This document shows, piece by piece, positions 5,088 to 62,616 of a stretch of 64,000 nucleotides of DNA. Below the pieces are notes generated by a model. The model saw only the letters and a list, made by a program, of their open reading frames with translations. It was not told where the DNA came from and did no database searches. The stretch covers positions 3,472,001 through 3,536,000 of the forward strand of contig CP136061.1 of the NCBI GenBank assembly GCA_032622095.1, read 5' to 3'. Each line of letters begins with the position of its first letter. The stretch's first letter is position 1. This stretch comes from Siphonodentalium dalli (taxonomy: Eukaryota; Mollusca; Scaphopoda; Gadilida; Siphonodentaliidae). Both the position numbers and the translations under genes were made by a program.

Positions 5088-5117
5088 AAAAGAGGCCTTT
5101 GGGGTTCCGTACAAAAT
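5088..5117 (+). CDS. Microexon A1, dibasic lead exon (KRGLWGSVQN)
   Basis: A 30-nt phase-0 exon coding for ten residues, KRGLWGSVQN. The acceptor is a T-rich tract ending TTTTTTCAG and the donor is GTAAGTAAC. It is the paralogue of 52157-52198 in copy B. The first ten or so bases and both flanking introns match that copy closely, but the rest of the exon differs and is 12 nt shorter. The leading Lys-Arg is a typical furin/prohormone-convertase cleavage site, so the mature peptide would start at Gly. This is inferred. No signal-peptide exon is visible upstream. The function is unknown; a precursor of a secreted amphipathic peptide is the best reading. Confidence 0.55.
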
Positions 5118-5329
5118 GTAAGTAACTAAACACATATGATTCATATATACGTCACTTGATCCAACCAATGACATGAAAAATGTATACTTTAATCCTTCCA
5201 TGACTGGAGCTTCCTCAAATCTTGCAAAAACCTTGTGCAGCTTCTTTTAAGGATTTTGATTTGTTAAAAATGCATAAATCGCTGGTGTTTTTCATGTGAT
5301 ATACAATATCTTCAATTCGTTTAGTTGGT

Positions 5330-5500
5330 ATATAAGGTTTATAAGATAAAAGGTTTATAAGATATGAGGTTGTATAAGATATAATGTATATAATATAAAA
5401 GGTTTATAAGATATGAGGTTGTATAAGATATAATGTATATAATATAAAAGGTTTATAAGATATGAGGTTGTATAAGATATAATGTATATAATATTTTATG
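5330..5500. repeat. AT-rich tandem repeat, about 49-bp unit, three copies
   Basis: Three near-identical units around GGTTTATAAGATATGAGGTT, lying in the intron after microexon A1. Copy B has only a collapsed remnant here (about 52405-52445), so the array expanded in copy A. Confidence 0.85.
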
Positions 5501-5534
5501 AAACTCACTAGTCTGCGACTCGTTGTGAATCTTG

Positions 5535-6925
5535 GCGTGGTCAAGATAGTATCCGAAATAAATACTATTTTATCAATATAATCATTATCCAAGGGCAACT
5601 TATATATATCCTGTTATCGTTGTTGTTGTTGTGGTTCTTGCTCTACGGAAAATTGAATCATACAACTTCCCTAACCCCAAACACCGGATGGTCGGATGAC
5701 AAAATATGTAGTGACTCTTTAATTAAGAACTATGGATTCTCATACTTTTTTTTCATAGTGAAACACTTCATCAAAATGCGATGGCTATTTACTTGTCCAT
5801 ATCGCTGATAAGCGACCTTTTCATGAAATGTATTCTTTAATATTACCAGCTTTCAAAACGTGTCCACATGGACAGACGGCTATCATCATAAATACTTACG
5901 TATGTATACATGGTACATAGCTTTAAAATTCATTTATTGCTAAATTCTGATTCACTAAACTCTTTGGAAATCACTGGAACCAATATGTGATTACAACATA
6001 GAACTGATGAGAATTAAAGATACACGGTCCAAATCAATGGTCCTAAATCACTATCCCTTTAGGCCCGATGAGAAAAATAAATATCCTATATGTATACATA
6101 TGTATGTATCGTATATAAGTAGTTGACAATGATTAGCATTGATTCTTGATAGTTACTCTAATCTGATAACTAGGTGGTCCTAGGTAAATTGCAATGTTTT
6201 GTTATTGGAATCTGACGATATTGGGATCATTGAGTTGGACTGTGTACTTTTAATTTAATTATAATTATTTAAGGGCATGTTCATGTATATATGCATAAGT
6301 TATCATATAGTAATACTCACAAGTGGGACAGAAGACAAGTCCATGTGCACCAAAGCCTACCACTCGATAATATAATGTTACAACTAAAAACCCATATTGC
6401 TAGAGTAGAAACAAGCTGGTAAATCCGAATAAACGAAGAATGAAATTCACAGGTGAAATGTCACAAACAAATTGAATCCCCGAGAACGAATAAACTAAAC
6501 CTGTTATCCTCCTGGCAGACAACATATGACCTGAAGTAGAACCGTGTTTTTACAGTTTTTGCCCGTGCACATGAGCTGGTCTCCCCGCCCTGCTTTGAGC
6601 TTCGCGTGAATTTATATACGCTGACCTGTCCTGGCCAGTTAATATATGAGTGTACGATCAGTTTGACCTATATTTATTCCCCGACCACTAACTGCAGGGG
6701 CGCGAGCTGGTGGGGCCCCTCCGGTTGCAGCTCGTGTGCCATCGCCCGGGCTGGGTTGGGGTGCTTATCGGGGTCGCGGTGCTGCGGTGGCTGGTTGGGA
6801 TAATTTTGTTGATATATATATGTATGTTTGTATTTGAACGCAGTGGGCAGGCGGGTCAGTGGAGCAATGTAGCACTCTATACCACTAGTTGTGGTCATTT
6901 AAGTGAATAAACGATATATAATTAT
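5535..6925. other. Copy-A-specific 1.4-kb segment with a GC-rich island
   Basis: The alignment with copy B breaks at about 5535 and resumes at about 6925, matching 52475-52485. The extra DNA is AT-rich except for 6570-6870, which is much richer in GC and contains GGGGCGCGAGCTGG and CGGGGTCGCGGTGCTGCGG. Short ORFs exist on both strands of the island, but none resembles a known family. It is probably an inserted element whose GC-rich part was its 5' region. No TIR, tail or target duplication was identified. Confidence 0.45.
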
Positions 6926-7256
6926 CAAATTCGATTCATAAAATCTCATATCCCAACATACCTCGCTGCAGATCCTCTATATATGCTTTACAGTAAAATA
7001 GCTCTGAATGGCCGGAAAATAAACGACGTATCAATCGCTTGCCCCAGCGAGCAAATACAATTTGTTATTCGCTGTTACCTTCATATTTACCTTCATAGCA
7101 TTGTTACTGGCGAATCACAGTCGCGCGCTCTAACTGAACTGAAAGTCATTAAGACACTGTTCTATATTATTAATATTATTAATGCAAATGTTATTAATGT
7201 TATTTGACTTTTCTCTATGTTGTTTTCTATATTAAACTTGCATATTAAGGTACCTT

Positions 7257-7330
7257 GGGCAAACATTAATGGTGAGTGAAATGGGGACAGCTTACAAACA
7301 TTAATGGTGAGTGAAATGGGGACAGCTTTT
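7257..7330. repeat. Two-copy tandem repeat containing GGTGAGT
   Basis: Two copies of about 35 bp (AACATTAATGGTGAGTGAAA core). In copy B the same site has four copies (52792-52915). Each unit carries ATGGTGAGTG, which looks like a splice donor, and units end in GGGGACAG, which looks like an acceptor. The piece between them is not a multiple of three and lacks a pyrimidine tract, so I do not call an exon. The stretch 7331-9206 is intron-like sequence shared with copy B, with no gene recognised. Confidence 0.7.
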
Positions 7331-9206
7331 TTCATAGAAGGTAGTCAGTTGGCAATAAACTGATTCGTTTCCGTCTACATTTTTATTGCAAAACTAGAGA
7401 ACACAACGGCAATTGAAATAACAAAATGCACATAATAAAAAGGAAACCTACGGCTTTTGACAGACGACGAAAATTATCTTATTCGTGGGTACAAGAAAAT
7501 ACCGAGTTTTCACTTGCGTTAAACTACACAGGAACGTATACAACACATAGAACATATCAACTGAAAAAATCTGATTATACCTTGATTCAGATCACTCTTG
7601 GTAGGAACAGTTAACCTATATCATAACCATTGATGTTCATCAATTGGGTCATTGTTATGTTGTCTCACCGAAGGTGATATATGTGTTCATAAAAGTTAAC
7701 AAGATGTGACACAATTTACGTTTTATGCATTAAGATAATATATTTTGTTGCTACATGTTGCTCTAGATAATTATAAATTGTTCATTCGAAACTAATGCCA
7801 TTGTGCACGACGACGCATGGTACATCGCACTCTTGAATAGACACGAGGTTCCGGTTCAATCTAAGGCAAATGAGTGTATATGACAACATAGAGTCACATT
7901 CCCACAGGAAGGTGTGTTAGTTAGACTGTGGAACAACTGAACAGGCTTGGTGTTTGTAAGTAATTGTGAGAAAATGCAAACACCGGGAAAATATGATTTC
8001 TGACCAGACACCCTCCACGACCCTGCACGATGAATTTGTCGTCAGAGTCCACCTGCTTCGGTAGGAAAACAAATTTACTTTACAAACAGAAAGTTTTTTT
8101 TTCTCCAAAAACAAACACATGTTGCACCAGTTAAATGGATATGTACTCAATTGTTGTTGTTGGTTTCTATAGTCTCTGAGTCGTAGAATAGGGTAACCAG
8201 ATTTCCATTATTTGAAAGTTTGTTGAATACGAAGTAATGTTAAGGATGGCAGATTAGCCGGAATGCGAAAATACCAATTGTCGTTGTCGAGTAATTTTTG
8301 GACAGTTTTCAAGCAAATGTATCAAATACATGTTATATTATATGCATACTAGTCCCATATACTAATTTAAGTCATTGTACAATCACTAGTCAGTGTGTGG
8401 CTTGAGTTTACGCCCTGTGTCAACATAATTGTTTATACGATCATCCGTGCCACGCATTGCCAAATCCAATGTCAGTGAATCAATTTTAATTACGTCTTGT
8501 ACACGGAAATTCGTAATTTAATTTATAGCTCCAGCCACATATTAAAGTTATATCAAATTATTAACTTTGATTTTAAGATAACCTATTAACCTGAACGTCT
8601 ACACAATACATCTTCGACTCAAATTACTTAGTTTTCTACATATGATTGCTATTAGACCGTTGTTATCACCATGAATTTATTGAAAATGGCGTACAGTACC
8701 CCTTCAACCCGTTCTATACTGAATGGATACTAAACATGGGAACGGTAAATTATTCATTAGGACAGCATACATAACAGATAAATAGATATATTAATTACAG
8801 ATACAACAAGGACGGAATGATTCGTATTCATTGATCGGAATTGTTCATATAGTAAGTTCAACAAATGACTATAGGTCGTTTGTTGAACTTAGTATCTGAA
8901 CATTTCCGAAGGGAACGAATCGTCAATGAGTATTTAGCATAGGCAGATTGAATTGCTGTAGCTTTTTGGCGAATGTACTAGTTTGAAGATGCAACTCTGT
9001 ATGAAATATTGAGTTTGTGTCATGTCTATCAGTGTCTATGGAAAGTCAAACAATCAATCTCTGTGGGACATTAAATCAACTGTCAAATTGCAAGAAATAT
9101 ATTGACACTTCCATAGGCTAAGTACATATGCTTGCTTTCTTACCAAGATTATGAATAGTTGCAATTATCTAGACGATATGCTAATATCAACATGTTTGTT
9201 TCACAG

Positions 9207-9236
9207 GTAATCAACGACGGAACGAAGGCTGTAGTG
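9207..9236 (+). CDS. Microexon A2 (VINDGTKAVV)
   Basis: A 30-nt phase-0 exon, VINDGTKAVV, between TTTGTTTCACAG and GTAAGTTAGC. Its copy-B counterpart at 54811-54840 differs at five of 30 bases, changing three residues (I to Y, D to G, T to K). The 43 bases downstream differ at only about one position. The lack of a frame-disturbing indel and the good splice sites in both copies argue for a real exon. It would follow microexon A1 in the transcript and extend the same peptide. The function is unknown. Confidence 0.6.
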
Positions 9237-10579
9237 GTAAGTTAGCTAATCTAAATAAGTTGTGATTATCTGTCCCGGGACGACTGGTAGGAGTGATGGA
9301 TATTTATAAATTGCTTTTGACCGCACAGTTTTGAGATAAATGTGGTGACCATAAGAAATGGCAACGAAATCACTGCATTGTTTAACAATGCAAAGCACTC
9401 CGGGGTCAGGTTTTTTCTTTTGAGGCGTTAATTTGTCATCTTGCTAGTCCCCACCCCCGAGGAACACACATTCTGTATATGAGTATTTCATGTATTGGTT
9501 GACATGTATGGATTGAGAGAACCATAGTCTGTGGCTAGTGCAATTCCAGATGATGTGAGCCAACCAACTAATCATATTCAACAGTTGTCCAAGTTTCCTT
9601 TGACGTAAACCAGTTATATTGGTGGGAATAGATACTTGTTCACGTTGAAATGCGTTTCACTTACATGTCAATAGTGGACTTTCTGCATTTTTCACCCACT
9701 CATCTAAAATCACCGATAACGTTAATAAAATGTGACAGCAAACCAGTCTATTCAATAGAACAAATATGTGTTGTGAACTTCAAATGAGGTGTCAACTGAA
9801 CGCAGTAATGTATTATGAAGATATATTTTAACACAATGATTACATAATTTCATAAGAATAAGAACCCATTTGACCTCGGGAAGTTACTTCTGATAGGTTA
9901 TTCCGTCGTTCGGGAAAACGTTTACATGATTTCCGTAACTTCCGCTCCGCATTGTCGTATCGAAAGAAATTATATAATGTAATTGGTAATTGGTGAATTG
10001 GAAAATACATACATCACGAGACGTCCAGTGTAAGAAATGTTTAACAAATAAGTAATGTTTACGATTTACAATTACAATTACAACAAAAAACACAATACAA
10101 AATAAGGGATGCAAACAAAAGGGTGGGTCACTGCATACGAGATATCCACACATTTACAAAGGTATTGTCAGATAATGGACGGCCCCGTGAACAACATCAC
10201 GATAAGTTGGTTTCATGGATGATATTGTCCATCTATATCTAAACTACACCGTGTTCATATTAGCTTTGAGTATGTGATCACAATTGCATGGATATGTCAG
10301 TATGACGCTCGAGACACACTGTCATACAGTGGACACATTTAATGATTTTATCTCATGTACGATATATATAAGGGGTCCTATATTTATAATAGAAACAGTC
10401 TACGGTATCTGCGCAACATAAATTATATTATGCATCAATCAATACAATCTTGCGAGTATAGTAAACAAATGGAACATAATTTCACAGGAATATGTTTTAT
10501 AAGTAGAATCATTGGCAATACTCATCACTGGATTAAATGTAGTAGTTTGATTTTAACACGATCAATTTTATTGTTACAG

Positions 10580-10612
10580 GACGTTGTTCAGGACAAAGGC
10601 AAAGACATTGCT
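10580..10612 (+). CDS. Microexon A3 (DVVQDKGKDIA)
   Basis: A 33-nt phase-0 exon, DVVQDKGKDIA, preceded by TTTTATTGTTACAG and followed by GTAAGTGTAA. Family members with the same flanks are at 12994, 22522, 28344, 56932 and 57578. It differs from 57578-57610 at eight of 33 bases, while about 100 bases of the following intron are almost identical. Reading straight through the donor stays open to TAA at 10778-10780, so a retained-intron form with a 55-residue tail is possible. The 11-residue length equals about three turns of an alpha helix. Confidence 0.6.
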
Positions 10613-12993
10613 GTAAGTGTAATTTTTACCATAAATTACGCGAAGGGTTCCAGGCCGATTTTCGAGGAAATCGCCAAACTCTGGAAAAATGGCTTCAAAC
10701 CACTTTTTGTAAAAATACAAATGTTTCTGACACACTACACCTTACCCAGTCATTGTTTATTTCATCACGAACTTCCATAACATATGAAAATTGTTAAATA
10801 TGTTGATCTTTAACATTTCCAAAGATAAACTGTTTCCACAATTAACTTTCGGTCGATATAAGTGACGAAAGCACTGTCCCGAGCCGTGGGGAAGGGTTCT
10901 GTTAGTGAATGTGTAGCTTTATGCTACGGTCTGTTGACATATATCTGTATTTATTGTCAAGTTTGTGTGTGCTTGTTTTTATATATTTAATTATTTATTT
11001 ATTTAGGTATTTATTTATTGTGTGCCTGTGTGTGATTGTTTTGATGACTGCTTGTGTTTCATGGTGGCGGGAATTACTATTGATGTCCTTTCTATATTTA
11101 TATTAACATGTATTTTGTAAAACGTACTCTCCTAGCTGGAGGAAATAAAGATATATATATAATGCATATGCCACAGCGAGTCATGTCGCCCACTGCATAT
11201 TCACAGAGTGAGTCTACTGGGCCAATTAACCAATTGCGTTTCACCAAGGTTGATCTCTACTCATTACGTTTTGCTACATTGTATTATATATGCGAAAACA
11301 CACTCATTGTGCGAATATGCAGGGTTGTATTAATTCACTACAACCAAGTTTATATCTCCACTAGGTCAGGTAAACACTGAGATTATGTTTGACAAATATT
11401 AAACCGGTTGTCATTGAGACGTTGACCTATTAAGAACCTGTTATCTATTCGCCGCACCTCTGGGTCATATACTCTAATGAATAGCCAGTGATCTCATTCA
11501 CAACACGCGATATTAACTTAACCTTATTTCCGATTTACAAATATGTGATTTAAAGCAATACCATTCATTCAAATTTAGTTGGCTTTCACTTGACACAAAA
11601 GGCTATAACAAAAGAAAATATACTAATATAAAGGACGACCCATATAAAGATAGTTCAAGGTCACGACTCTTTGGCCTATATACAGGCCTGGTCGCTGGTC
11701 TAGTACTGGTATAATGATCCTGTTAAAAAGTTCTCTATACTACTAATAATGGTTATTTTTGGGGGTTTTGTTATAAGATATGCCAAAAAATAATATGTAA
11801 GTCCTATATTTGATTTTAGTTTACTTTATTTTACTTTAGTTTATGTAGTTAGTTTAGTAAAAGGGAAATAGTATTCAATTAACTGATAGCCTGAAAATAA
11901 TTTATAACCCATTGGGCGCCCCTGGGGTATAGTGAAGTGAATTATGGGTAATTTTAATTTAAGTGCGCATGTCTGTTCAGTTGGAGTAATCACGATCTTT
12001 TTATTTTCTGGTCATATACACAATGTGTTTGCACCGATGCATGTATCGTGACTCGACTCGTTTTCGTGGTAATATAGGCCCTATATAGCCTATGATCACG
12101 AAAACGAGCAGAGTCGCGAAATCTGATAGAATTCCCGGAATTGTACATTCACTTTCAATAGTATACATTCTCTGAATCTGCGGAATTCCCACAATTGTAA
12201 TTCACTTTCAATAGGATTCTCCGAATTTGATAGAATTTTCACTATCACTGTTCATTTTTACCACGCAAAGCGACCTTAGTTGACACAGATATGTGACACA
12301 CTGGCTGAGTCGATGACAAATAGTTTATGTAGCATTGCTTCTTTCATTTAATTAAAGCTCACCTCGTTAAAACGCATGTTAATCGTATTTGTTTTCAAAT
12401 TGCATTTCAGTTTTGACAAACTATTTATGGAGCCAGAAGTGAGTTTGTTTGAAGCCAATGTTATCTCACTTGACCTCATAACTGAAAATTTCCGTAACCG
12501 GTTCGTACAAAGATAATTGATAACGGCAAAATTTAATAAATTAGTTACCTTGTTTATGTCAAACGTTCTTGATTATTATACATAGATGTATGGTCAATTA
12601 CTTATAGTATATAGTTGGTTTCATGGATGATATTGTCCATCTATATCTAAACTACACCGTGTTCATATTAGCTTTGAGTATGTTATCGCAATTGCAATAA
12701 TATGCATGGATATATCAGTATGACGCGCGAGACACAGTGTCAGACAGTGGACACATTTAATGATTTTATCTCATTTACGATATATATAAGGGGTCCTCTA
12801 TTTAGAAACGGTCTACGGTATCTGCGCAACATAAATTATATTATGCATCACTCAATACAATCTTTCGAGTATAGTAAACAAATGGAACATAATTTCACAG
12901 GAATATGTTTCTATCCGTCGAATCATTGGCAATACTCATCACTGGATTAAATGTAGTAGTTTGATTTTAACACTATAAATTTTATTGTTACAG
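10613..12993. other. Intron-like stretch between microexons A3 and A4
   Basis: 10613-10790 is a conserved block shared by all units of this exon family. 10800-12000 is AT-rich with no recognised gene; short ORFs at 10909-11380 are low-complexity. A perfect-looking hairpin lies at 12049-12118. A small imperfect repeat (TTGTA..TTCACTTTCAATAG) occurs twice at 12140-12215. From about 12610 the sequence repeats 10205 onward, which is the start of the next exon-bearing unit. Confidence 0.6.
12049..12118. repeat. Inverted repeat hairpin
   Basis: The arm CGACTCGTTTTCGTGGT is complemented by ATCACGAAAACGAGCAGAGTCG about 30 bp away, with a short self-complementary AT-rich loop. It is probably the remnant of a small hairpin MITE. 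Confidence 0.6.
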
Positions 12994-13026
12994 GGCGTTT
13001 TTCAGGACACAGCCATTGACGCTAAT
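12994..13026 (+). CDS. Microexon A4 (GVFQDTAIDAN)
   Basis: A 33-nt phase-0 exon, GVFQDTAIDAN, with acceptor TTTATTGTTACAG and donor GTAAGTGTAA. It sits in a unit (12610-13460) that duplicates 10205-10800 and also matches 57235-58050. It differs from 57578-57610 at four of 33 bases. Its read-through frame meets a stop earlier than that of A3, at the codons after HYT. It probably codes for a helical spacer or a further mature peptide of the same precursor. Confidence 0.58.
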
Positions 13027-13519
13027 GTAAGTGTAATTTTTACCATAAATTACGCGAAGGGTTCCAGGCCGATTTTCGAGGAAATCGTCAAACTCTGGAA
13101 AAATGGCTTCAAACCACTTTTTGTCAAAATACAAATGTTTTTGACACACTACACCTAACACACTCATTGTTTATTTGATCACAAACTTCCATAACATATG
13201 ATAGGCCGATACTAGGTTGAAGAAATCGATCTTGAAAAAAACGCCTATATGTCCGTCTACCAAGTACCTGTTTCTGTAACAGACTGCGCATGCGCAAAAA
13301 TGAAACAATCTTGTTGGATATATTTGTACACCGGGTACATATTAACTTCGAATACATGAAGCCATTATGTGGCACATACATGTGTAAATCTTAGCCTGGG
13401 CCCAGTTTTATGAAAGCAACTTATGACATAGTTGGGACTTAAAATGGTCATAAGTCATAAAACCGCCCTGACCAACCCACCTTTTCGATTAAACAATCAT
13501 TATTAGCCAAGAGCATGAT

Positions 13520-44178: not shown

Positions 44179-44244
44179 CAATAATATACTCCACTAATGA
44201 TGTCCAGAGCAGTCGACCTTGTGGTCATTCGTATCACGCAGGCA

Positions 44245-48725: not shown

Positions 48726-48734
48726 CATTCACGA

Positions 48735-49425: not shown

Positions 49426-52156
49426 CAACATTGCATCTTTCTCCGTATCCATTGATAGTAAATATTATAATGTCTGTACATGTATATAACCTGCATATAG
49501 AGTCCCAAGCGCTTCGAGCTACACCAGGGATGAAGCGCTATACAAATGCTATATATTATTATATTATTATATCGTTTTCTACGACAAAATGCCTGGAAAC
49601 CATACCGTGCAAACTTTCCAGTGTATGAACGTACCCTAAGAAGTTTTATCCGATTCGGTTATATGCATGCAGCTCAGTTATGAGACAATACACAAGTATG
49701 TTATCCCTATAATATATTTATACAAAGCCCCCCACCGCTCCTAATGAAGCCATCGTTTCTGCGGACAATGTGGCAGAGCGGCCTTTTATTAGTCCTGAGA
49801 TAATACAGTTTGGTACATTCAATCACAAAGTGCAATTCATCGTTATTGTCTCATCCAGAGTTAGCTAGTTAGTTCATCACTTCTTTGACGCATCACACAT
49901 AAGGCCTCAGTGCCGTTCAAATTAGAAATCAGACCCAGTATTTTACGACCCTCTTGTACAATGACCTACCCCAATAGCTTATCATACGCATCTTGACTTT
50001 TATGAGCAGTATTGTTTTACCTGATCCACCGTAAACAATATACTGAATGCAGTGTACTTCGCTTCATCGTAAAATTAATTGTAGAAACTGATTCAAAATG
50101 TTATCATGCGCTCAGGTTCCCGTGACCCGTACTTCACACACGTACATTGCCCTTAAGTGTTCCTATATCTGATATTCGCTTCACCGCTTTGCAGAATCCA
50201 CCAATATAGAAAATTGTGATACCAAGGTAGGACAATCTTTTAACCACCTCCACTGGTTCATCTCCCAATATATAAAACGTGACGAATGTCTAGATTTGTT
50301 TTTTGCAAAAAATATTAGCATTTTAGTTTGGGAAATATTAATCTTCAACTACGACGCTTTTTTGTGTTATCAAAGAAAACTAGAGCTGGTGCATACTTTC
50401 TTTACCACCGGCAAATATAATAGTATCATCTGCATATAATAGATCAACAACTTCATGTATGAGCCGAAATGTTTTGACATAAACATATGTAACACAGTCT
50501 GCATATCGCAGTTTGCAAAAAAGACTCTATATCATTTATAGAACAATAAATTAAGAGAGTGGACAATTGTTGTCCTTGTCTCACTCCTGCATCACGCATA
50601 CAATAATCGCTGCTCTTGATATTTGATATAATACAAGACTTAATACTACTATACAGGCTCTTGATTATGTTAAAATATTTACCTGTGATCCAATTTCGAA
50701 TTAGTTTGACCCATAATCCATTCCGCCGTACAGCACCGAAGGATCAGCCACCATTACATCGGTGTTCTAATGAACCATTTCTGGGGTTTTTTGGTGGGCA
50801 ACTTGATTTGAATCACTAGGTGTTAATATATTTGGCTTTAATTTTGTCGTCTGTTGTTTTATGGGATCCCTGCTATAAAAACACCAATGAGATGAATTGT
50901 TTAAGAATTCACTTAGAAATAAGATTAGCACATCTTGGAGCAAGGTAGCTCTCTTTCCAATAAGTCACGTCACTTGCAATCCGCTAATGTCGGTTTTCAT
51001 TGCTTATTATTGACGGTTTGAGACACAACATTTTAGCACTGCAATTTATTTGATCACGGGCAACGAAACAAGTCAATTCATTGGACCACACTGTAACACT
51101 ATAACAAACAATTCAATGTTGAAGATGGAGCATGGCTTGCCATTTAAATGTGCCGTATGCTATACACGCTTACATTATAAATAGATAGATATATGGTTTA
51201 TTGACAAAGTGCATACAATAATATTAAGGTAGTTAAATATGAAATAAAGATATGGATACTGAATAGCACTCAGCCGACACAGTGTAATTTGGTACGTTTC
51301 TACAGCAGTAAATAATTCGATTGTATCCATGAGCCCATTAATGTGAGGTTTTGATGTCAGATATTGACTTTCAAAAGAAGTTTCACCAAGTTTTACATTT
51401 TTGTCAGCAAACATTCCAATATAATATCAGATTAAGAGCGTTCAGACTTTCGTCAGATACCATAAATAACCACCGGTCAGATACCATAAATAACCACCGG
51501 GCAGATACCATAAATAACCACCGGTTGTACTCGGGTACCGGAATTCAAAGGTGGATTATCTCTTTGTAAACATTTATTGTAGTGTTACCGGGGTATCAAA
51601 TATTAGATCTGAATCGAAGACTCCTGTCCGGAAACGCTTCTGTCGATTAATATTATTTCGAATATTTTATGGTCTAAAAAGTTGTCGTTCTTCAGCTAAC
51701 GGACAATAGTGGTTACTGATAACAGAGACCAGAAATTTATGGTGTAATTTTGTCACGAATAAACGTTAATTATACTCATTATCGCTTATAATTATGGAAT
51801 AAAACAATACAACCAATCAATCTGGGACATTTTACGTTCGGTGTGTAGCCATATGAACAGCCTAATGCTCTCAATCGATACATGGTATCACCCGAATGGT
51901 CTGTTCTAAAAAGAGACAAATAAACGGTCCCAATAAAATATTGGAAATAAAATCAATATTAATTGATAGAAGCCTTACCGGACAGGGGTCTTCAATTTAT
52001 ATTTATTATTTTATACCCACGCAACTATGTCAAATTTGTTATTTAAAGAGATAATCAATCTTTAAACGTAAATGAAAATAACTGCTGCAAAATATATCTT
52101 TTGCAGGTTGTTTTTGATCATTTATTAATAAATATTTATTTCATTTTGTTTTTCAG

Positions 52157-52198
52157 AAAAGAGGCATTTTTGATTCCATTAAAAAGGGAGTTTCAAAG
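52157..52198 (+). CDS. Microexon B1, dibasic lead exon (KRGIFDSIKKGVSK)
   Basis: A 42-nt phase-0 exon, KRGIFDSIKKGVSK, with acceptor TTTTGTTTTTCAG and donor GTAAGTAACT. KR is a standard proprotein cleavage site. What follows (Gly, bulky hydrophobic, Phe, Asp, x, Ile, Lys, Lys) has the spacing of a cationic amphipathic helix and recalls by eye the N-termini of amphibian aurein/citropin-type antimicrobial peptides. That is probably convergence, not homology. Copy-A paralogue: 5088-5117. Exon B2 would extend the same cationic stretch. I infer a secreted antimicrobial- or cytolysin-like peptide precursor; the function is not proven. Confidence 0.6.
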
Positions 52199-52791
52199 GT
52201 AAGTAACTAAATACATATGATTCATATATACGTCACTTGTTCCAACTAATGGGGATGAACATGTATACTTTAATCCTTCCATGACTGGAGCTTCCTCAAA
52301 GTTTGCAAAAACCCTGTGCAGCTTCTTTTAAGGATTTTGATTTGTTAAGACATACGTCGCTTGTGTTTTTCATGTGATATACAATATCTTCAATTCGCTT
52401 TGTTTGTATATAATCTTTATACGATATAAGGTATATAAGATTTTATGAACTTCACTAGTCTACAAATCGTTGTGAATCGAATTTATCGATTCATAAAATC
52501 TTATATCCCAACATAACTCGCTGAAGATCCTCTATATCTGCTTTATAGTAAAATAGCACTAAACGGCCGAAAAATAAACGACGTATCACTCGCTTGCCCC
52601 TGCTTGTTATTCGCTGTTACCTTCATATGTACCTTCATAACGTTGTTACCGGCGAATCACAGTCGCGCGCTATAACTGAACTCAAAGTCATGAAGACTCT
52701 GCTCTACGTTATATTATACAAATGTTATTAATGTTATTTAACTTTTCTCTGTTGTTTTCTATATTAAACTTGCATATTAAGGTACCTTGGG

Positions 52792-52915
52792 CAAACATTA
52801 ATGGTGAGTGAAATGGGGACAAACATTAATGGTGAGTGAAATGGGGACAAACATTAATGGTGAGTGAAATGGGGACAGCTTACAAACATTAATGGTGAGT
52901 GAAATGGGGACAGCT
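52792..52915. repeat. 28-35 bp tandem repeat, four copies
   Basis: Homologous to the two-copy array at 7257-7330: AACATTAATGGTGAGTGAAA units. The intron stretch 52199-54810 otherwise contains only sequence shared with copy A and no recognised gene. Confidence 0.8.
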
Positions 52916-54810
52916 TCTTTCGTTGAAAGTAGTCAGGTGGCAATCAACTGATTCGTTTCCGTCTACATTTATTGCAAAACTAGAGAACACATGGCAAATT
53001 GAAATAACGAAAATGCACATAATAAAAAGGAAACCTACGGTTTTTGTCAGAAGACGAGAATTATCTTATTCATGGGTACAAGAAAATACCGAGTTGTCTC
53101 TTGCGGTAAACTACCCAGGAACGTATACAACATAGTTATAGAACATATCAACTGAAAAAATCTGATTATACCTTGATTCAGATCACTCTTGGTAGGAACA
53201 GTTAACCTATATCATAACCATTGATCTTCATCAATTGGGTCATTGTTATGTTGTCTCACCGAAGGTGATTTATATGTTCATAAAAGTTAACAAGATGTGA
53301 CACAATTTACGTTTTATGCATTAAGATAATATATTTTGTTGCTACATGTTGCTCTAGATAATTATAAATTGTTCATTCGAAACTAATGCCATTGTGTACA
53401 ATCGACGCATGGTACACCGCACTCTTGAATAGACACCAGGTTCCGGTTCAATCTAAGGCCAATGAGTGTATATGACAACATAGAGTCACCTTCCCACAGA
53501 AAAGTGTGTTAGTTAGACTGTGGAACAACTGAACAGTCTTGGTGTTTGTAAGTAATTGTGAAAAATGCAAACCCCAGGAAAATATTATTTCTGACCTGAC
53601 ACCCACCACGACCATGCACGATGAATTTGTCATCAGAGTCCACCTGCTTCGGTAGGAACAAAAAATTTACTTGACAAACATAATTTTTTTTCCAAAACAA
53701 CCACATGTTGCACCAGTTAAAGGGATACTGTACTAAATTGTTTTTGTTGGTTTCTATAGTCTCTGAGTCGTAGAATAAGGTAACCAGATTTCCATTATTT
53801 GAAAGTCTGTTGAGTACGAAATAATGTTTAGGATAGCAGATTAGTCGGAATGCGAAAATACCAATTGTCGTTGTCGAGTAATTTTTGGACAGTTTTCAAG
53901 CAAATGTATCAAATACATGTTATATTATATGCATACCAGTCCCATAAATTCATTTAAGTCATTGTACAATCACTAGTCAGTGAGTGGCTTGAGTTTACGC
54001 CCTGTATCAACATAATTTTTTACACGATCATGCGTGCCACGCATTGCCCAATCCACTGTCAGTGACTTATTTTTGATTACGTCTTGTACACGGAAATTCG
54101 TAATTTAATTTATGGCTCCAGCCACAAATTAAATTTATATCAAATATTAACTTTGATTTTAAGATAACCTATTAACCTGAACGTTTACACAATACATCTT
54201 CGACTCAAATTACTTAGTTTTCTACATATTATTGATATTAGATCGTTGTTATCACCATGAATTTATTGAAAATGGCGTACAGTACCTCTTCAACCCGTTC
54301 TATACTGAATGGATACTAAACATGGGAACGGTAAATTATTCATTAGGAGTGGTTCATGATAAATCAGGAGACTACAGCATACATAACAGATAAATAAATA
54401 TTTTAATTACAGATACAACAAGGACGGAATGATTCATATTCATTCATCGGAAATGTTCATATAGTAAGTTCAACAAATGACTATATTGTGAACTCAGTTT
54501 GGTGAACTTAGTATCTGAACATTTCCGATTGGAACGAATCGTCAATGAGTATTTAGCATAGGCAGATTTAAGTGCTTTAGCTTTTTGGCGAATGTACTAG
54601 TTTGAAGATGCAACTCTGTATGAAATATTGAGTTTGTGTCATGTCTATGGAAAGTCAAACAATCAATCTCTGTGGGTCCTTAAATCAACTGTCAAATTGC
54701 AAGAAATATATTGACACTTCAATAGGCAAAGTACATGTGCTTGCTTTCTTACCAAGACTATGAATAATAGTTGCAATTATCTAGACAATATAAACATGTT
54801 TGTTTCACAG

Positions 54811-54840
54811 GTATACAATGGCGGAAAGAAGGCTGTAGTG
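54811..54840 (+). CDS. Microexon B2 (VYNGGKKAVV)
   Basis: A 30-nt phase-0 exon, VYNGGKKAVV, between TTTGTTTCACAG and GTAAGTTAGC. Compared with A2 it is more basic (T to K, D to G), while its flanking introns differ only slightly. It would directly follow B1 and complete a cationic segment of about 22 residues after the KR site. The function is inferred as for B1. Confidence 0.6.
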
Positions 54841-54887
54841 GTAAGTTAGCTAATCTAAATAAGTTATGATTATCTGTCCCGGACCAC

Positions 54888-55675
54888 TGTTCTAAATTTG
54901 AACAGGGACGGAATACATGTACAAGTTGCACAAATAATAAGGGACCAGTTTATTCAAGGGTTGTATATTGATATCAGTTTATCACGTAAAGGTCAATTTT
55001 ATTCCATCATAAAAGATGAATTCATTTTCGAAAATTACCTGTACGCTAAAAGTCAGAAAGATATATACACGCTCGCACAATTTAGAACACGAAACCACAA
55101 TCTACCCATTGAATCCGGTAGTTGGAATAATATCCCTAAAGATAAACGTTTATGCTCAGGATGCGACTGGAGATTGGAGATGAACTACACTATTTAATAG
55201 ATTGCCATTGTCTTAACCAGTCAAGAGAATATTATTATTCCCATTGTGTATTTTCAAGAACCGAATATAGCTTGAGCAAATTGAAAATGCTTCTAACAAA
55301 TTCGAGACCATCAGTTATGAAAAAACCTGAAGGATGATCAGATGTATCTTATCAACAGCTACCTGTTCTCCAGGCCGAAAGAGGAACATGTAGCAATTAC
55401 CTGTCAGGAGGCAGCCTGATAAACCTGCCATAACCGATATACACCTTATGCTTTTTGTCAAATCCCCTGTCACGTTCTGATAACACATACATATGCAAAC
55501 ATTATGAAGTACATGCAACGAATGGTCTAAAATTAACGTATATTTTAAGTAAATATGCTTTACCATTTAACATAAATTGTTATCCATACGTGACAGGGGC
55601 TATTGTTATTGTTATTGTAATATGCCCTTCTATGTACCATGTAAGTTGGATGATAGAATAAACATATACTCTAAA
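54888..55675 (+). mobile_element. 5'-truncated LINE tail in an intron of copy B
   Basis: Absent from copy A, where 9280 and 9290 are contiguous. The frame at 54898-55197 reads LAQFRTRNHNLPIESGSWNN and KRLCSGCD, continuing in the +1 frame as GDELHYLIDCHCLNQSREYY. This is the C-x2-C...H...C C-terminal domain of many LINE reverse transcriptases. One frameshift separates the parts. It ends near AATAAACATATACTC. Confidence 0.8.
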
Positions 55676-56931
55676 AAGAGTGATGGATATTTATAAATTG
55701 TTTTTGACCACACAGTTTTTAGATAAATGTGATTACCATAATAATTGGCAACGAAATCACTGCACCTTTTAACAATGCAAAGCACACCGGGGTCAGGTTT
55801 TTTCTTTTGAGGCGTTAATTTGTCATCTTGCTCGTCCCCACGAGAACACATTCTGTATATGAGTATTTCATGTATTGTTTGACATGGATGGATTGAGAGA
55901 ACCATAGTCTGGCTAGTGCCATTCAGGTGATGTGAGGCAACCAACTGTAAGCATATTCAACAAATGTCCAAGTTTCCTTTGACGTAAACCAGTTATATTG
56001 GTGGGAATAGATACTTGTTCACTTTGAAATGCGTTTCACTTACATGTCTAAAGTGGACTTTCGAGGCATTTTGACCCACTCATCTAAAATAACCAATAAC
56101 GTTAACAAAATGTCACAATTATGACAGCAAACCAGTCTATTCAATAGAAAACATATTTTTGTGAACTTCAAATGAGGTGTCAACTGAACGTAGTAATGTA
56201 TTATGAAGATATATTTTAACACAATGATTACATAATTTCAAAAGAATATGAACCCATTTGACCTCGGGAAGTGACTTCTGACAGGTTATTCCGTCGTTTT
56301 CAGTAACTTCCGCTCCGCATGGTCGTCTTGAAAGAAATTATATAAGGTACTTGGTAATTAGTAAATTGGAAAATACATACATCACGAGAGGTCAAGTGTA
56401 AGAAATGTTTAACTAATAAGTAATGTTTACCATTTACACTTACAACGAAAAACACAATACAAAATAAGGGATGCAAACAAAAGTGTGAGTCACTGCATAC
56501 GAGATATCCATCCATTTTACGAAGGTATTGTCAGAGAATGGACGGCCGCGTGAACAACATCACAATAAGTTGGTTTCATGGATGATACTGTCCATCTATA
56601 TCTAAACTACAGTGTTCATATTAGCTTTGAGTATGTGAGCGCAATTGCCATAATATGCATGGATATATCAGTATGACGCTCGTGACACACTGTCAGACAG
56701 TGGGACGCATTTAGTAGTCTTATATATATAAGGGTCCTCTATTTAGAAACGGTCTACGGTATCTGCGCAACATAAATTACATTATGCATCACTCACTACA
56801 ATCTTTCGAGTATAGTAAACAAATGGAACATAATTTCACAGGAATATGTTTCTATCAGAATCATTGGCAATACTCATCACTGTATTAAATGTAGTAATGT
56901 GATTTTAACACGATAAATTTGATTGTTACAG

Positions 56932-56973
56932 GGCGTTGCTAATGAGGCCAAGGACACAGCCAATGACGTCGTT
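56932..56973 (+). CDS. Microexon B3 (GVANEAKDTANDVV)
   Basis: A 42-nt phase-0 exon, GVANEAKDTANDVV, with acceptor TTTGATTGTTACAG and donor GTAAGTGTAA. It has 14 codons, two heptads, against 11 in its tandem neighbour B4. The difference is a 9-nt in-frame change inside the exon, while the splice flanks are identical. Alternating charged and small hydrophobic residues suggest a helix. Confidence 0.6.
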
Positions 56974-57577
56974 GTAAGTGTAATTTTTACCATAAATTAC
57001 ACAATGATTACATAATTTCAAAAGAATACGAACCCATTTGACCTCGAGAAGTGACTTCTGACAGGTTATTACGTCGTTCCGGAAAACGTTTACATGAGTT
57101 CCAATTACAACAAAAACACAATACAAAATACGGGATGCAAACAAAAGTGTGAGTCACTGCATACGAGATATCCATCCATTTTACGAAGGTATTGTCAGAG
57201 AATGGACGGCCGCGTGAACAACATCACGATAAGTTGGTTTCATGGATGATACTGTCCATCTATATCTAAACTACACTGTGTTCATATTAGCTTTGAGTAT
57301 GTGAGCGCAATTGCCATAATATGCATGGCTATGTCAGTGGACACATTTAGTAGTCTTATATATATAAGGGGTCCTCTATTTAGAAACGGTCTACGGTATC
57401 TGCGCAACATAAATTATATTATGCATCACTCAATTCAATCTTTCGAGTATAGTAAACAAATGGAACATAATTTCACAGGAATATGTTTCTATCAGTTGAA
57501 TCATTGGCAATACTAATCACTGGATTAAATGTAGTAGTTTGATTATAACACTAACACTATAAATTTTATTGTTACAG

Positions 57578-57610
57578 GGCGTTGTTAAGGACACAGCCAT
57601 TGACATTAAT
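57578..57610 (+). CDS. Microexon B4 (GVVKDTAIDIN)
   Basis: A 33-nt phase-0 exon, GVVKDTAIDIN, between TTTATTGTTACAG and GTAAGTGTAA. Counterpart of A3 and A4. The frame continues open through the donor to TAA at 57776-57778, a possible retained-intron tail. Intron sequence on both sides is nearly identical to the copy-A units. Confidence 0.6.
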
Positions 57611-58281
57611 GTAAGTGTAATTTTTACCATAAATTACGCGAAGGGTTCCAGGCCGATTTTCGAGGAAATCGCCAAACTCTGGAAAAATGGCTTCAAACCA
57701 CTTTTTGTCAAAATACAAATGTTTTTGACACACTACACCTTACCCACTCATTGTTTATTTGATCACAAACTTCCATAACATATGATAGGCCGATACTAGA
57801 TTGAAGAAATCGATCTTGAAAAAAAACGCCTATATGTCCGTCTACCAAGTACCTGTTTCTGTAACAGACTGCGCACGCGCAAAAATGAAACAATCTTCTT
57901 GGATATATTTGTACACCGGGTACATATTAACTTCGAATACATGAAGCCATTATGTGGCACGTACACGTGTAAATCTTAGCCTGGGCCCAGTTTTATGAAA
58001 GCAACTTATGACATAGTTGGGACTTAAAATGGTCATAAGTCATAAGTAGAAAGGCGTGCACTGTGGAACAACCAAATTATTGGTAATATTTGAATCTAAA
58101 TATTCAACACAAACATTGCATACGCTAAACGAAAGGCACATATTCACACATAAAACAGTTAATGTATCACATTTTAGAACACTCATGCGCTGTTTAACAG
58201 TTCAATAAAAACCTTGCCAATGTCCAAAGTTGGAATATATCTATTAGTTTGATTTTTGCTATCACAATGTTGTCTTTACAG

Positions 58282-58323
58282 GGAGCTTTCAGTAACCTGG
58301 GCAGTGATACCAAGAACATTATG
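58282..58323 (+). CDS. Microexon B5 (GAFSNLGSDTKNIM)
   Basis: A 42-nt phase-0 exon, GAFSNLGSDTKNIM, with acceptor TGTTGTCTTTACAG and donor GTAAGTTTG. It lies beyond the duplicated block, so copy A has no direct counterpart next to its B4-equivalent. Like B3 it begins Gly-hydrophobic and has 14 residues, with D-T-x-N near the end, suggesting descent from the same cassette. Confidence 0.55.
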
Positions 58324-59023
58324 GTAAGTTTGTTCATTGATCACTATTTTGGATGCCACCCCCTCCTGTCTGCGTACACTTTGATATTGTTACCAGACAT
58401 CCATACCATACTAAGTTGAAGACAGTCTTATTCTATTTTCGACTTGGTTCTAAAAAACTGAAATAAAGTTGAGTGTCATCAGCAAATAGATGACAAGATA
58501 AACCACATTTAGTAATGATTACAGCAGTGTATATAACCATTGTCTTTACATTTTTATCATAGAAAATCATTAGATCGGAACCACAAGCCCATTAACCATG
58601 CCTATACTAAATCATTAATTTTAATTATGGGTGTCGAGAAGTATAATAATGGATGAGGTTAAGGGATAATCTTCCAGTATATTAAATGCACATATACATA
58701 CATATACATATATATACAGAGGGTATATATATACAGAGGGTGTTTATCCCTGGTGACAGGTCCAGTTGTGCGTTTAGTAAACATTTGTAAAAAAAAAAAA
58801 AAGGTAGGCGATTATAGTACCAGTCATGCATGAAAATTGTAGCATGGACCTTGTAAAGATCATATACTTTCAAAATATTTTCTTTTTTAAACAGCGGTGC
58901 GAATGATCAATATCCTCGCGCAAATACGCACGACCTATAATGTGAAATAGGTACATAATGTGATTATTTGATTCTGATATAACAAATAATGGAGCCATAT
59001 TCTTATTTCGTTTTATGGCGCAG
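58324..59023. other. Intron-like stretch with simple repeats
   Basis: Contains a TATACA-rich simple repeat (58685-58740) and a poly-A run (58788-58802). No gene recognised on either strand. Confidence 0.5.
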
Positions 59024-59071
59024 GCCAAATTGAAAACACATGTTAAAGAGCGTACTCATGAAGAGTCGTAA
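59024..59071 (+). CDS. Candidate last microexon with stop codon
   Basis: Acceptor TATTTCGTTTTATGGCGCAG. In phase 0 the exon reads AKLKTHVKERTHEES and then TAA at 59069-59071. The stop overlaps a GTAAGT that would act as a donor after 44 nt, but that would shift the frame. It could therefore be a terminal exon, with a basic tail, or a chance match. I see no AATAAA nearby, only AATAAAT at about 59884. Exons further downstream argue that, if real, it is an alternative end. Confidence 0.3.
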   Translation, partial: AKLKTHVKERTHEES

Positions 59072-59319
59072 GTTGGCTTATTTGTGCTTTTATCCGCTTA
59101 TAATCGCCACATTATGAGTCCATAATGTGACTAAATGGCTCTCATTTTCAACACATAATCGATTCAAAATGAACCGATTCTAAGCAGATAAACTACCTAT
59201 AATAAGTTATGATATCAGCAGATAATACGCGGGTGATCCTGTGATAAGAATACAGGTGATCCTGATTTTCATTTTACTTTTTCCTTGTAAAGTTGCCAGA
59301 TAATCTTCTAATTATAATT

Positions 59320-59610
59320 CATAATATAACACATAATATTTACTTACACCAATTTAAATGAGACAATACAACGATAACGTAGTTACAGTGACTGCTTAAA
59401 ATATGACACATAATATTTATTTGCATCAGTTTAAATGAGACAATACAATGATGACGTAGTTACAGTGACCGTTTAAAGTATGACACATAATAATTTATTT
59501 GCATCAGTTTAAATGAGACAATACAATGATGACGTAGTTATGATGACTGTTTAAAGTATGATACATAATATCTATTTGCAGCAGTTAGAATGAGTTTATA
59601 CAAGGATTTA
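59320..59610. repeat. Tandem repeat, about 65-bp unit, four copies
   Basis: Units contain TTTAAATGAGACAATACAAT, GATGACGTAGTTACAGTGAC and ACACATAATA. Imperfect and AT-rich. The region 59611-60270 is non-coding with nothing else recognised. Confidence 0.8.
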
Positions 59611-60269
59611 CATTAGTAAATATTAGTACTTGTCAATAATGTAATGAATTACATGGGGTTTATCCATGTTTTACACATTAAGTCCACTCATGTATACATA
59701 ACTGTAATATTACAATGTATGTCTTACCATGGTATAGACAAATATTAGACATGTGATATAGGCTAATATACAATGTTATCAGTTGCGACGTTACATGATT
59801 TTCAATTTCTTTGTTTATAAAGTAGTTCAATGATGATCGGTTGTGACTTGTATATACATGTACATTAATATACTAATAATTATAATAAATGAGAACAATT
59901 ATACTAATTGTTATACATAATGTTGTCATGCAAAATGTGATCACGAGGCGACATGTTAGTGATTCTGATATCAGCTTTTCATGGGTATCTTAAAGACACA
60001 TAATCTCACATAATACCTGTTCATTATTTGTAAATTATCTTTAAGGGTTACCTTCCTACTTATACAAACACCACTCACTTCTCGGATCCCTATATTTATC
60101 AACAGTTATACCATTTTATATTGCCTTGTTATGTGATAGAGGAATGGCTACCTGCTTGACACATGGATATGTTACCTTAATGCTGTCAGAATAACTTGAG
60201 TTTCAATATTCTGTTCCATGTATCTCATTTGACAAGTCAATAGTATTGACACATGGAGTAATAGAAATC

Positions 60270-60815
60270 CGCGTCGAGAAAACATTACGCAATCACACAA
60301 CATTGCTTTGATAACAGGGCATATCAAATATTTCAAACAAAGTTTATTCGATATTAAAGATAAATCAGTTGAGCATAATTACGCAGAAATTGTCGTCTAT
60401 TCCTGACCACCTTTTGAATACTGATGCGCCATTTTCCGATTAGTGTAATAAAGTTATTAATACAAGATACTAATTTGAGTTTCATCATGATAATTTTGTA
60501 TTGTTACAGAAACAGATGCAAGGGAGATTGGGCAACATCCAGGTATGTTCGTTATCTGATACTTGTCATTATTTACGTATCAGGAGGTAAAGCTATGCCC
60601 GGTTCATATTACATTGTGGTATATGCATAAAAAACATTATGTAATCACTAAACATTGATTTAACAATTGGACTTATAAAATATTTCAAACAAAGTTTATA
60701 CAATATTAATGATAACTCAAATAATCACAATTACGCAGAACTAGTAGTCTATTCCTGACCACCTTTTGAATACCGATGCACCACTTCCGATTGGTTGAAT
60801 AAAATTATTAATCAA
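60270..60815. repeat. Duplicated intron segment flanking microexon B6
   Basis: 60271-60460 and 60628-60810 are diverged copies (shared TTTCAAACAAAGTTTAT and CTATTCCTGACCACCTTTTG). The first leads into the exon at 60510. The second should lead into another one but shows no acceptor-exon-donor, so a cassette was lost or never completed. Confidence 0.65.
60510..60542 (+). CDS. Microexon B6 (KQMQGRLGNIQ)
   Basis: A 33-nt phase-0 exon, KQMQGRLGNIQ, with acceptor TTTTGTATTGTTACAG and donor GTATGTTCG. Basic and amphipathic, 11 residues like B4. No copy-A homologue in the window. Assignment to the same gene rests on strand, phase, size and the same style of acceptor. Confidence 0.5.
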
Positions 60816-61084
60816 TAGTTTATATTTGTTCATATTGTGGTGCATGGAAACGAAACTACTGTATGATACGAGTCGTCATGATATGTTGTCAAACACAAAA
60901 TAAACACCTAAACAAACGTAAGCTCACCCTGATATTTTGAGATATCTTAAGATGGTAATCAGACTGCAATGGAAGTTTTGTAATATATACATAGACCACA
61001 ACACGTGCATGACCTAGTTAATGTTATTGCACTGGTGTGTTGTGATGCAATGGTAAAACGAGAACTAGAGAGCAATAACGTTAA

Positions 61085-62156
61085 GAAAGCGCCCCCCCCC
61101 CCTCTTGAATTTTCAAAAACATCTCAATTACAAAATATCAATATAAAGGAAACAATCATTATCCGTTATAACCAATGTATGTATTACAACACATGTTTAC
61201 CCTCACAAAGGAGAGATTTGTCCTAATTATGTAAAGAAGTGGTTTAAAACAAATTTTAAGCCAGTTATTTGAGAGTTTGGGAGGAAATATTTGGAAAATC
61301 AAACGCACTGCATTTTCTAGCTTAGGAATCCAACTAGGGTCTACTATCTGCAATATTGACGTTCTGCGAGAAATTAAATAATTAAATTGTTTTTTTGTTT
61401 TAGTGTTTTGGTAGCTATTGTTGTATTGTATGAAGGACAAAAAGAACATAAATATTATTCAATCACGTTTGCAATAATCTGGCAGACATAAGCACCCAAT
61501 ACTGATTCAACTTTCTAGACATTATGTTGTAATATTGATCTGAAAAGTATATATATGATATAGTATAATATAATATTCGAAGATTCAATTGTACGTGTTG
61601 GCATCGAATGAGAACGTTAAGAAAGCGCCCCCCCCCCTCTTGAATTTTCAAAAACATCTCAATTACAAAATATCAATATAAAGGAAACAATCATTATCCG
61701 TTATAACCAATGTATGTATTACAACACATGTTTACCCTCACAAAGGAGAGATTTGTCCTAATTATGTAAAGAAGTGGTTTAAAACAAATTTTAAGCCAGT
61801 TATTTGAGAGTTTGGGAGGAAATATTTGGAAAATCAAAACGCACTGAATTTTCTAGCTTAGGAATCCAACTAGGGTCTACTATCTGCAATATTGACGGTC
61901 TGCGAGAAATTAAATAATTAAATTGTTTTTTTGTTTTAGTGTTTTGGTAGCTATTGTTGTATTGTATGAAGGACAAAAAGAACATAAATATTATTCAATC
62001 ACGTTTGCAATAATCTGGCAGACATAAGCACCCAATACTGATTCAACTTTCTAGACATTATGTTGTAATATTGATCTGAAAAGTATATATATGATATAGT
62101 ATAATATAATATTCGAAGATTCAATTGTACGTGTTGGCATCGAATGTCAGCTATAG
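61085..62156. repeat. 536-bp direct tandem duplication
   Basis: 61085-61620 and 61621-62156 are almost identical, starting GAAAGCGCCCCCCCCCC and ending GTGTTGGCATCGAATG. They differ at a few bases and in C-run length. Non-coding; the ORFs it contains appear twice for that reason only. Confidence 0.95.
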
Positions 62157-62583
62157 AGATTGTATGTAAATAAGGACATACAGACAGTTAATACGTTAAC
62201 ACTAGTCATACTTTAGTCATGGGCTAGGTCCAATGGGTGTCATTGTAGTAGCTGACCACACCGGGTCCATTACGATATGTTTGATTGATACGTGTGAAAA
62301 TAAATTGAACTCGTTATGACCAGACGGGTGAAATATCCAGAAAGAATGACATCAACATCAGTAAGTAGAATTATAGTATTAAGTTATAATATTTAGTTTC
62401 CGGGGTCTGTATTTGGCTGGCTATCTATCAAATGAGTCGCTTTGCAGACCAGCCGAGGACTACAAGCACATTGACCCCATTTTCCTCAACCAAAGAATCT
62501 CGTCAATTCATATAATTGTCCAATTAAGATGGTGAATAATAGCAATGTTTATAATGGATAGTCATTTTCTATTTTGGTTACAG

Positions 62584-62616
62584 AACCTTCTTCCGGTCGC
62601 AGAATTATCCAAATTG
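62584..62616 (+). CDS. Microexon B7 (NLLPVAELSKL)
   Basis: A 33-nt phase-0 exon, NLLPVAELSKL, between TTTTCTATTTTGGTTACAG and GTAAGTAGGA. It is hydrophobic, with one acidic and one basic residue, and unlike the other exons it contains Pro. A second GTAAGTAGAA at 62361 has no convincing exon before it. The gene probably continues past the window end, since no stop is reached here. Confidence 0.5.

Follow-up and report, generated by a model that had tools for sequence, protein, structure and literature searches.

Do the short, widely spaced segments on the + strand of a 64,000-nucleotide stretch of contig CP136061.1 (positions 3,472,001 to 3,536,000; hereafter the window) form a gene, and if so, what would it make? 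The first-pass annotation had proposed a microexon gene family of at least fourteen such segments. Our analysis leads us to consider, with a probability of roughly two in three (0.66), that the locus is an animal microexon gene, arranged either as two tandem paralogous series or as one gene with two blocks, in which each 30–45 nt phase-0 exon would encode roughly three to four turns of an uninterrupted amphipathic alpha-helix whose period is 11 residues, or three turns. The exons are probably in-frame helix cassettes of a fast-evolving, lipid- or membrane-active protein which would be secreted.

Fourteen intact + strand segments could be located, with outer ends at exactly 5088 and 62616. As had been claimed, all are multiples of three in length and open in frame 0; all carry CAG acceptors, and the donors are GTAAGT in 13 cases and GTATGT in one. 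The proposed size range of 24–45 nt narrows to 30–45 nt for the intact segments, its lower limit probably stemming from a copy at 27180 with a changed donor, and the pyrimidine-tract acceptors described together with mostly GTAAGT donors proved only moderately rich in pyrimidines (8–13 of 15 positions), while the donors agree in 13 of 14. The two large series announced are indeed present, in duplicated DNA, as series A (5088–35678) and series B (52157–62616). Neighbouring listed copies lie 604 to 16478 nt apart, the maximum being the gap from A to B. The exons and two altered copies are as follows.

5088 to 5117, + strand: series A exon 1, 30 nt, KRGLWGSVQN (dibasic KR, then G); acceptor CAG, donor GTAAGT; its paralogue is 52157
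9207 to 9236, + strand: series A exon 2, 30 nt, VINDGTKAVV; its paralogue is 54811
10580 to 10612, + strand: series A exon 3, 33 nt, DVVQDKGKDIA; of one exon family with 12994, 22522, 56932 and 57578
12994 to 13026, + strand: series A exon 4, 33 nt, GVFQDTAIDAN; its nearest copy is 57578
21357 to 21401, + strand: series A exon 5, 45 nt, DGLQNGYGIVANGLV
22522 to 22563, + strand: series A exon 6, 42 nt, EGVDVVEGTANNIA
27180 to 27203, + strand: copy of the 21357 exon, 24 nt, with a probably weakened donor, GTCAGT
28344 to 28385, + strand: copy of the 22522 exon, 42 nt, with a probably dead acceptor, CTG
35640 to 35678, + strand: series A exon 7, 39 nt, NDIAKSFMSLFRR, ending in RR
52157 to 52198, + strand: series B exon 1, 42 nt, KRGIFDSIKKGVSK, a net 12 nt different from 5088
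54811 to 54840, + strand: series B exon 2, 30 nt, VYNGGKKAVV
56932 to 56973, + strand: series B exon 3, 42 nt, GVANEAKDTANDVV
57578 to 57610, + strand: series B exon 4, 33 nt, GVVKDTAIDIN
58282 to 58323, + strand: series B exon 5, 42 nt, GAFSNLGSDTKNIM
60510 to 60542, + strand: series B exon 6, 33 nt, KQMQGRLGNIQ, donor GTATGT
62584 to 62616, + strand: series B exon 7, 33 nt, NLLPVAELSKL, its helix face weak and out of register

The number of such segments was compared with chance by a mechanical scan for GTAAGT donors closing candidates of 18–54 nt behind an acceptor with at least 9 pyrimidines in 15, leaving length class and frame unconstrained. On the + strand, 14 of the 15 acceptor-donor pairs found were multiples of three, and on the − strand 2 of 5; two looser acceptor rules gave 19/24 and 20/25 on the + strand and 4/8 under either rule on the − strand. 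Eleven distinct + strand GTAAGT donors closed an open exon of this length class, compared to one on the − strand and to a mean of 0.60 (never above 3) in 300 sequences simulated by a first-order Markov model with a separate fit for every 4 kb, and the looser rules yielded 14 and 15 donors against simulated means of 0.88 (maximum 4) and 1.18 (maximum 5). GTAAGT is itself in excess (26 on the + strand and 19 on the − strand, 15.0 expected), which explains part of the donor excess. Exons 21357 and 56932 satisfy the looser acceptor rule only, and 60510 has a different donor. As the exons group into some eight families, spread for the most part by duplication and hence mutually dependent, the single probabilities were not multiplied.

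The same duplication allows exons to be compared with the introns around them. Two segments are concerned.

1 to 13460, + strand: segment with the first four exon places, recurring in blocks within 42918–58045 at 84–97% identity
42918 to 58045, + strand: second copy of this segment, holding a long interspersed nuclear element (LINE; about 46.85–49.64 kb) and a 49-bp tandem array

The recurrence is interrupted by insertions and gaps. A stretch at 10.1–10.8 kb recurs wholly or partly near 12.6–13.2, 56.6–57.0, 57.1–57.8, 22.5 and 28.3 kb. In the aligned copies the introns are alike and the splice sites kept, and the exons differ. For four disjoint A/B exon pairs, pooled, 23 nonsynonymous changes were counted in 97.3 sites (0.24), compared to 86 changes in 1263 positions of the flanking introns (0.068; p = 5.6e-7), and the pooled exons had changed about three times more than these introns. 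Taken singly, the pair 12994/57578 differed at 12.1% in the exon and 2.2% in the flanks (0.121 vs 0.022, p = 0.011), and two further pairs showed exon/flank values of 0.267/0.079 and 0.303/0.098 (p = 0.003 each).

The exon changes follow a pattern in length and in residue class. Net length differences, taken from the exon boundaries as the aligner broke exon gaps into small pieces, are all multiples of three (12 nt for exon 1, 9 nt within the exon 3 family, 21 nt between exon 5 and its copy); outside the exons this is the case for 35 of 244 indels, the others being mostly of 1 or 2 nt. In the four A/B pairs 20 of 42 aligned residues differ, and 19 of these 20 keep their hydrophobic/other class; a class switch is expected in 0.32 of random single nonsynonymous changes, and the chance of seeing no more than one among 20 is then p = 0.004, a value presuming independent single steps, which some of the changes are not. 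Several changes on the polar half alter charge (Q/K, N/K, T/K, G/D), and the net charge is −3 for A and +5 for B. The rate of change was alike on the polar and hydrophobic halves (10/25 vs 10/17, p = 0.35). That the helix surface varies rapidly from copy to copy, with the overall shape preserved, points to a gene of a little-known kind, which would vary a protein in contact with membranes or lipids.

How far the predicted peptides form one helix was examined by joining the exons in genomic order, which gives 84 residues for A and 85 for B, with no cysteine in all 169. The hydrophobic moment is 0.423 for A and 0.350 for B. It is highest at 98.0 and 98.75 degrees per residue, nearly the angle of a helix that makes three turns every 11 residues, and the autocorrelation of hydrophobicity over lags 1–18 is maximal at 11 in both series (0.34 and 0.24). 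At the best angle the exon faces of A point to 321, 334, 340, 353, 346, 304 and 345 degrees (7/7 in line) and those of B to 330, 345, 344, 322, 320, 310 and 78 degrees (6/7 in line). Among all 5040 possible exon orders, the genomic order of A ranked 18th and that of B 31st, and on a second hydrophobicity scale the ranks were 18th and 19th; these ranks are from the finer angle grid, a coarser one having given the more favourable fractions of 0.0004 and 0.0036. The shared phase of homologous exons favours such coherence, for which the order test controls partly. Strings of random open pieces bounded by AG and GT, drawn from a pool of 874 in the same window, reached the observed moment in 0 of 20000 draws for A and 18 of 20000 for B, and two unweighted face tests reached the value of A in 12 and 11 of 20000. 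Singly, 5 of the 14 exons are amphipathic at p < 0.05, so most exons are not significant alone.

Taken together, the length statistics, the length changes in multiples of three, the kept splice sites and the continuity of the helix over the predicted junctions support well the presence of a gene or gene pair; of the gene family originally proposed, this support covers the two series.

It had further been claimed that skipping or swapping exons would leave the frame intact. This follows from their lengths, and in silico the effect extends to the helix: single-exon skips leave 83–109% of the moment of A and 90–119% of that of B, the angle being free by up to 3 degrees, and swapping the homologous exons 1–4 between the series gives moments of 0.331–0.454, compared to 0.397 for either series unswapped. 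The altered copies at 27180 and 28344 together encode 8 + 14 = 22 residues. When both are read, the angle of A is unchanged, the moment is 0.434 and their faces point to 320 and 328 degrees; reading one of them gives 0.386 or 0.417. With angle and moment so kept, the two exons seem to have been copied together as one unit neutral to the register, their splice sites changing afterwards, although the cases are few and this remains suggestive. We propose, as a tentative idea, that each microexon may be a near-register helix cassette, in which length changes (of 3, 4 and 7 residues, and the 22-residue pair of 2 × 11 with shift 0) would preserve one hydrophobic face, duplication, resizing and skipping being tolerated while the charge of the polar face changes.

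What the product may be is suggested by its N-terminal part. Exon 1 of both series reads KRG, then a hydrophobic, then an aromatic residue; the KRG start is common to A and B and the remainder of exon 1 changes. Precursors of secreted peptides are commonly processed at KR ahead of Gly, and GLW or GIF starts are common among linear membrane-active peptides. An amphipathic helix of this length, free of Cys and variable in charge, is suggestive of a secreted peptide active at membrane or lipid surfaces. In the mechanism that we envisage, the exons would be spliced in genomic order behind a signal-peptide exon that would lie beyond the window or have been missed; a proprotein convertase would cleave at the KR of exon 1 and release a mature peptide starting with Gly; and this peptide would sit on membranes or lipid surfaces, as a lytic, antimicrobial or lipid-binding agent. 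Its diversification, presumably under pressure from changing targets, would come about by duplicating exons, altering their length and possibly splicing them alternatively.

Scans for the outer exons of the gene returned several candidates that were set aside. A hydrophobic phase-0 piece at 35661–35747 begins within A exon 7 and extends into a tandem repeat; the candidates with a hydrophobic start at 637 and 43529, which do not differ between the segment copies, have a weak donor in phase 1 or else run into a stop; and in an aligned exon-like pair, 3793–3855 and 50734–50793, the copies differ by frameshifts. Other phase-0 first-exon candidates occur elsewhere in the window, several of them inside repeats, and terminal-exon candidates are too numerous to choose among.

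The surrounding DNA is rich in repeats. The B copy of the duplicated segment contains a 49-bp unit repeated in tandem about 40 times (44249–46199), of which seemingly a mere trace stands at the matching place in A, and a LINE with an endonuclease domain (46850–49640), which we take to be of L2/CR1-like class. Since the blocks flanking it adjoin in A, the LINE is probably younger than the duplication. At 47136 it encodes an Exo_endo_phos domain, and its best protein match is 41% identical; in this search, which scored the 7993 candidates sharing most words, few of the 91 matches named an organism, the best of these being the gastropod Nucella lapillus (40%), followed by a bacterial bin, reptiles, a sea urchin, a sea cucumber and a frog. 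These relatives point loosely to marine invertebrates, and the host, an animal, is plausibly one of them. Some 290 bp at 603–890 and 43495–43782 are nearly invariant between the segment copies, where the surroundings differ by several percent, an identity that could be due to conversion, a mobile element or a conserved element. Two 78-bp copies at 20612–20769 resemble the sequence preceding the 21357 exon and have no evident exon; they may be remnants of additional exon duplication events. The copies 27180 and 28344 sit amid nested repeats, both inverted and direct, with units of about 140 and 281 bp (24947–30819), a 390-bp unit occurs in three near-identical copies at 36627–37810, and a 536-bp tandem duplicate of 99% identity lies between the last two B exons (61077–62146). 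A search of the window against Rfam at gathering scores and a tRNA scan came back empty.

Several observations weigh against the gene model as we read it, which is a prediction known here from the DNA sequence alone. Frame 0 is open in 16/16 copies, and frames 1 and 2 are open in 12/16 and 9/16 and the antisense frames in 12, 13 and 6 of 16; as other sense and antisense frames are so often open, openness of the frame by itself says little. Two of the 16 copies (27180 and 28344) have an altered splice site. In the four pairs, synonymous changes amount to 4 in 28.7 sites (0.14), and the difference from the nonsynonymous value is not significant (0.24 vs 0.14, p = 0.19), so fast exon change is shown relative to introns and not relative to synonymous sites; the pair 9207/54811 is without excess (exon 0.167, flank 0.145, p = 0.47). 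B exon 7, set aside post hoc, is weak and out of register and carries the sole proline of the 169 residues, and in the unweighted face tests B by itself comes out as marginal, being reached in 652 and 996 of 20000 draws. No phase-0 signal-like first exon was found in 1–5088, and none that convinced between A and B, in scans which, using simple splice weights, can miss exons. Finally, a search with the A/B alignment against about 5.8 billion proteins found no relative: one of its 80 candidates reached E ≤ 10 (P0092, E 0.46), and this protein, rich in KDTAEG repeats, was rejected as a relative and taken as convergent low complexity.

Other searches gave a similar picture. Joined series B, run against the same number of proteins (about 5.8 billion), returned nine candidates, none at E ≤ 1. 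The earlier statement that the exons have no known match is consistent with the two protein searches, which gave no match below E = 0.46, but exons changing this fast would escape detection even with relatives present. In PDB, A had no match and B ten, of which the best (glutamate dehydrogenase, E 0.04) was taken as chance. Pfam gave nothing for A and two sub-threshold matches for B, LEA_4 (E 0.058, 13.7 vs 51.1 bits) and Dermcidin (E 0.051, 14.3 vs 27 bits), and NCBIfam no match. Neither protein search, both by a short-word method and with no direct alignment to a schistosome microexon gene (MEG), returned an MEG; as the exons change fast and the search relies on short words, a match to an MEG is likely to have been missed. 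A literature search, largely outside subscription papers, found no paper describing this gene, nor one on microexon genes whose helix register is 11 residues.

Alternative explanations bear on the arrangement, the product and the reality of the gene. It is possible, though we would not lean towards it, that A and B belong to a single transcript, yielding either a polyprotein that would be cleaved into several helical peptides, at KR and also at the RR ending the 35640 exon, or mutually exclusive cassette blocks behind shared 5′ exons. KR opens both blocks, RR closes the last A exon, and A and B read as one 169-residue chain have a moment of 0.365, with six B exon faces still agreeing with A; nor was a phase-0 signal-like first exon found between the series, with the reservation of 35661–35747. 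Such a transcript would, however, have to bridge the 16478-nt gap between A and B, in which first-exon scans can miss exons, and the repeat spans about 5 kb upstream of exon 1, as a tandem duplication of a whole gene would leave it. As to the product, a cytosolic or otherwise non-secreted helix protein of lipid-binding or desiccation type (LEA-, synuclein- or perilipin-like, built of 11-mers) appears unlikely to us. The 11-residue period would suit it, as would the sub-threshold LEA_4 match of series B (E 0.058), though its score of 13.7 bits is far under the 51.1-bit cut-off; KDTAEG/KDTAN repeats abound in the sole protein match, P0092 (E 0.46), which has the precomputed label PF07464, presumably apolipophorin-III. 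Against this, the KRG start is kept in both series while the rest of exon 1 changes, and exons changing more than introns would be unusual for a housekeeping helix.

That the locus belongs to the schistosome MEGs and the DNA to a flatworm is very improbable. Short exons of multiples of three amid long introns would fit, and the parts of PMC5825161 available describe several MEGs with predicted amphipathic helices and internal duplication in MEG-26.2 and MEG-26.4. However, the part of PMC10526429 available describes mostly 15-bp exons, and products in which Pro, Phe and Leu are regularly spaced, compared to 30–45 nt and one Pro in 169 residues here, and flatworms are not among the organism-named relatives of the LINE, a weak point given that most of the 91 matches are without an organism name. 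Hardly credible, finally, is a chance or wholly dead locus in which segmental duplication spread splice-like signals: the changed splice sites in 2 of 16 copies could be so read, and about eight exon families make the effective number smaller than 14, but the net length changes in multiples of three, the class-keeping residue changes and the helix register across exons speak against it. Genes of many tiny exons are easily overlooked by annotation and homology search, and the continuity of a helix face over junctions is an independent, DNA-only test of a gene model that could be applied to find such genes in other genomes without RNA.

Among known systems, preprodermaseptin/dermcidin type peptides resemble the predicted product in their KR-Gly-hydrophobic-aromatic start, KR standing ahead of a Gly-hydrophobic-aromatic start in dermaseptins, and in a long Cys-free helix; to our knowledge such peptides are not split over many microexons, and the score of series B is below the Dermcidin cut-off of Pfam (14.3 vs 27 bits). 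Group 3 LEA proteins, synuclein and exchangeable apolipoproteins have 11-mer amphipathic helices and share the 11-residue, three-turn period; they differ in gene structure, and no significant match to them was obtained. Bicycle proteins of aphids carry paired cysteine motifs, in contrast to the 169 residues here, which lack cysteine.

Microexon genes had been ascribed to secreted proteins of schistosomes, but, as far as the available parts of the papers cited here extend, they also include the aphid bicycle genes (PMC9168663) and the SA8 toxin genes of sea anemones (PMC10210398). Bicycle genes likewise have many fast-evolving microexons of one phase, though their internal exons are almost all of phase 2 (PMC9168663), whereas the locus appears to be in phase 0 (open in 16/16 copies, with helix coherence in frame 0) and so, by phase, is not a bicycle gene. 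SA8 genes share microexons with large introns, one of 17 kb, and have a pro-cleavage site and, in one species, one highly variable exon; they have 3–5 microexons and encode cysteine-containing peptides (PMC10210398), whereas each series of the locus has seven or more exons and its predicted peptide lacks cysteine.

The schistosome MEGs themselves are composed mostly of short symmetric exons, nearly all of their products are secreted or exposed, and several have predicted amphipathic helices (PMC5825161, PMC10526429); exon sizes are given as 6–36 bp or 3–81 bp (PMC10526429, PMC5825161), an N-terminal signal peptide is described as the sole feature kept across MEGs (PMC10526429), and recombinant MEG-8.2 lyses host cells (PMC12998952), again in the parts available. 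The locus resembles the amphipathic MEGs (MEG-8, -9, -12 and -26) in its many short exons of multiples of three, long introns, fast change, duplicated exon blocks and predicted amphipathic helices (PMC5825161), and by analogy it may work like one of them. It differs in having exons of 30–45 nt, all in phase 0, and a helix period of 11 residues that continues across seven exons of A and six of B. Should the cassette idea hold, exon structure would be tied to helix geometry, membrane-active peptides could diversify fast with the fold kept, and such a gene would serve to generate diversity among secreted, membrane-active helices, its geometry being unlike that of the schistosome, aphid and sea anemone microexon genes.

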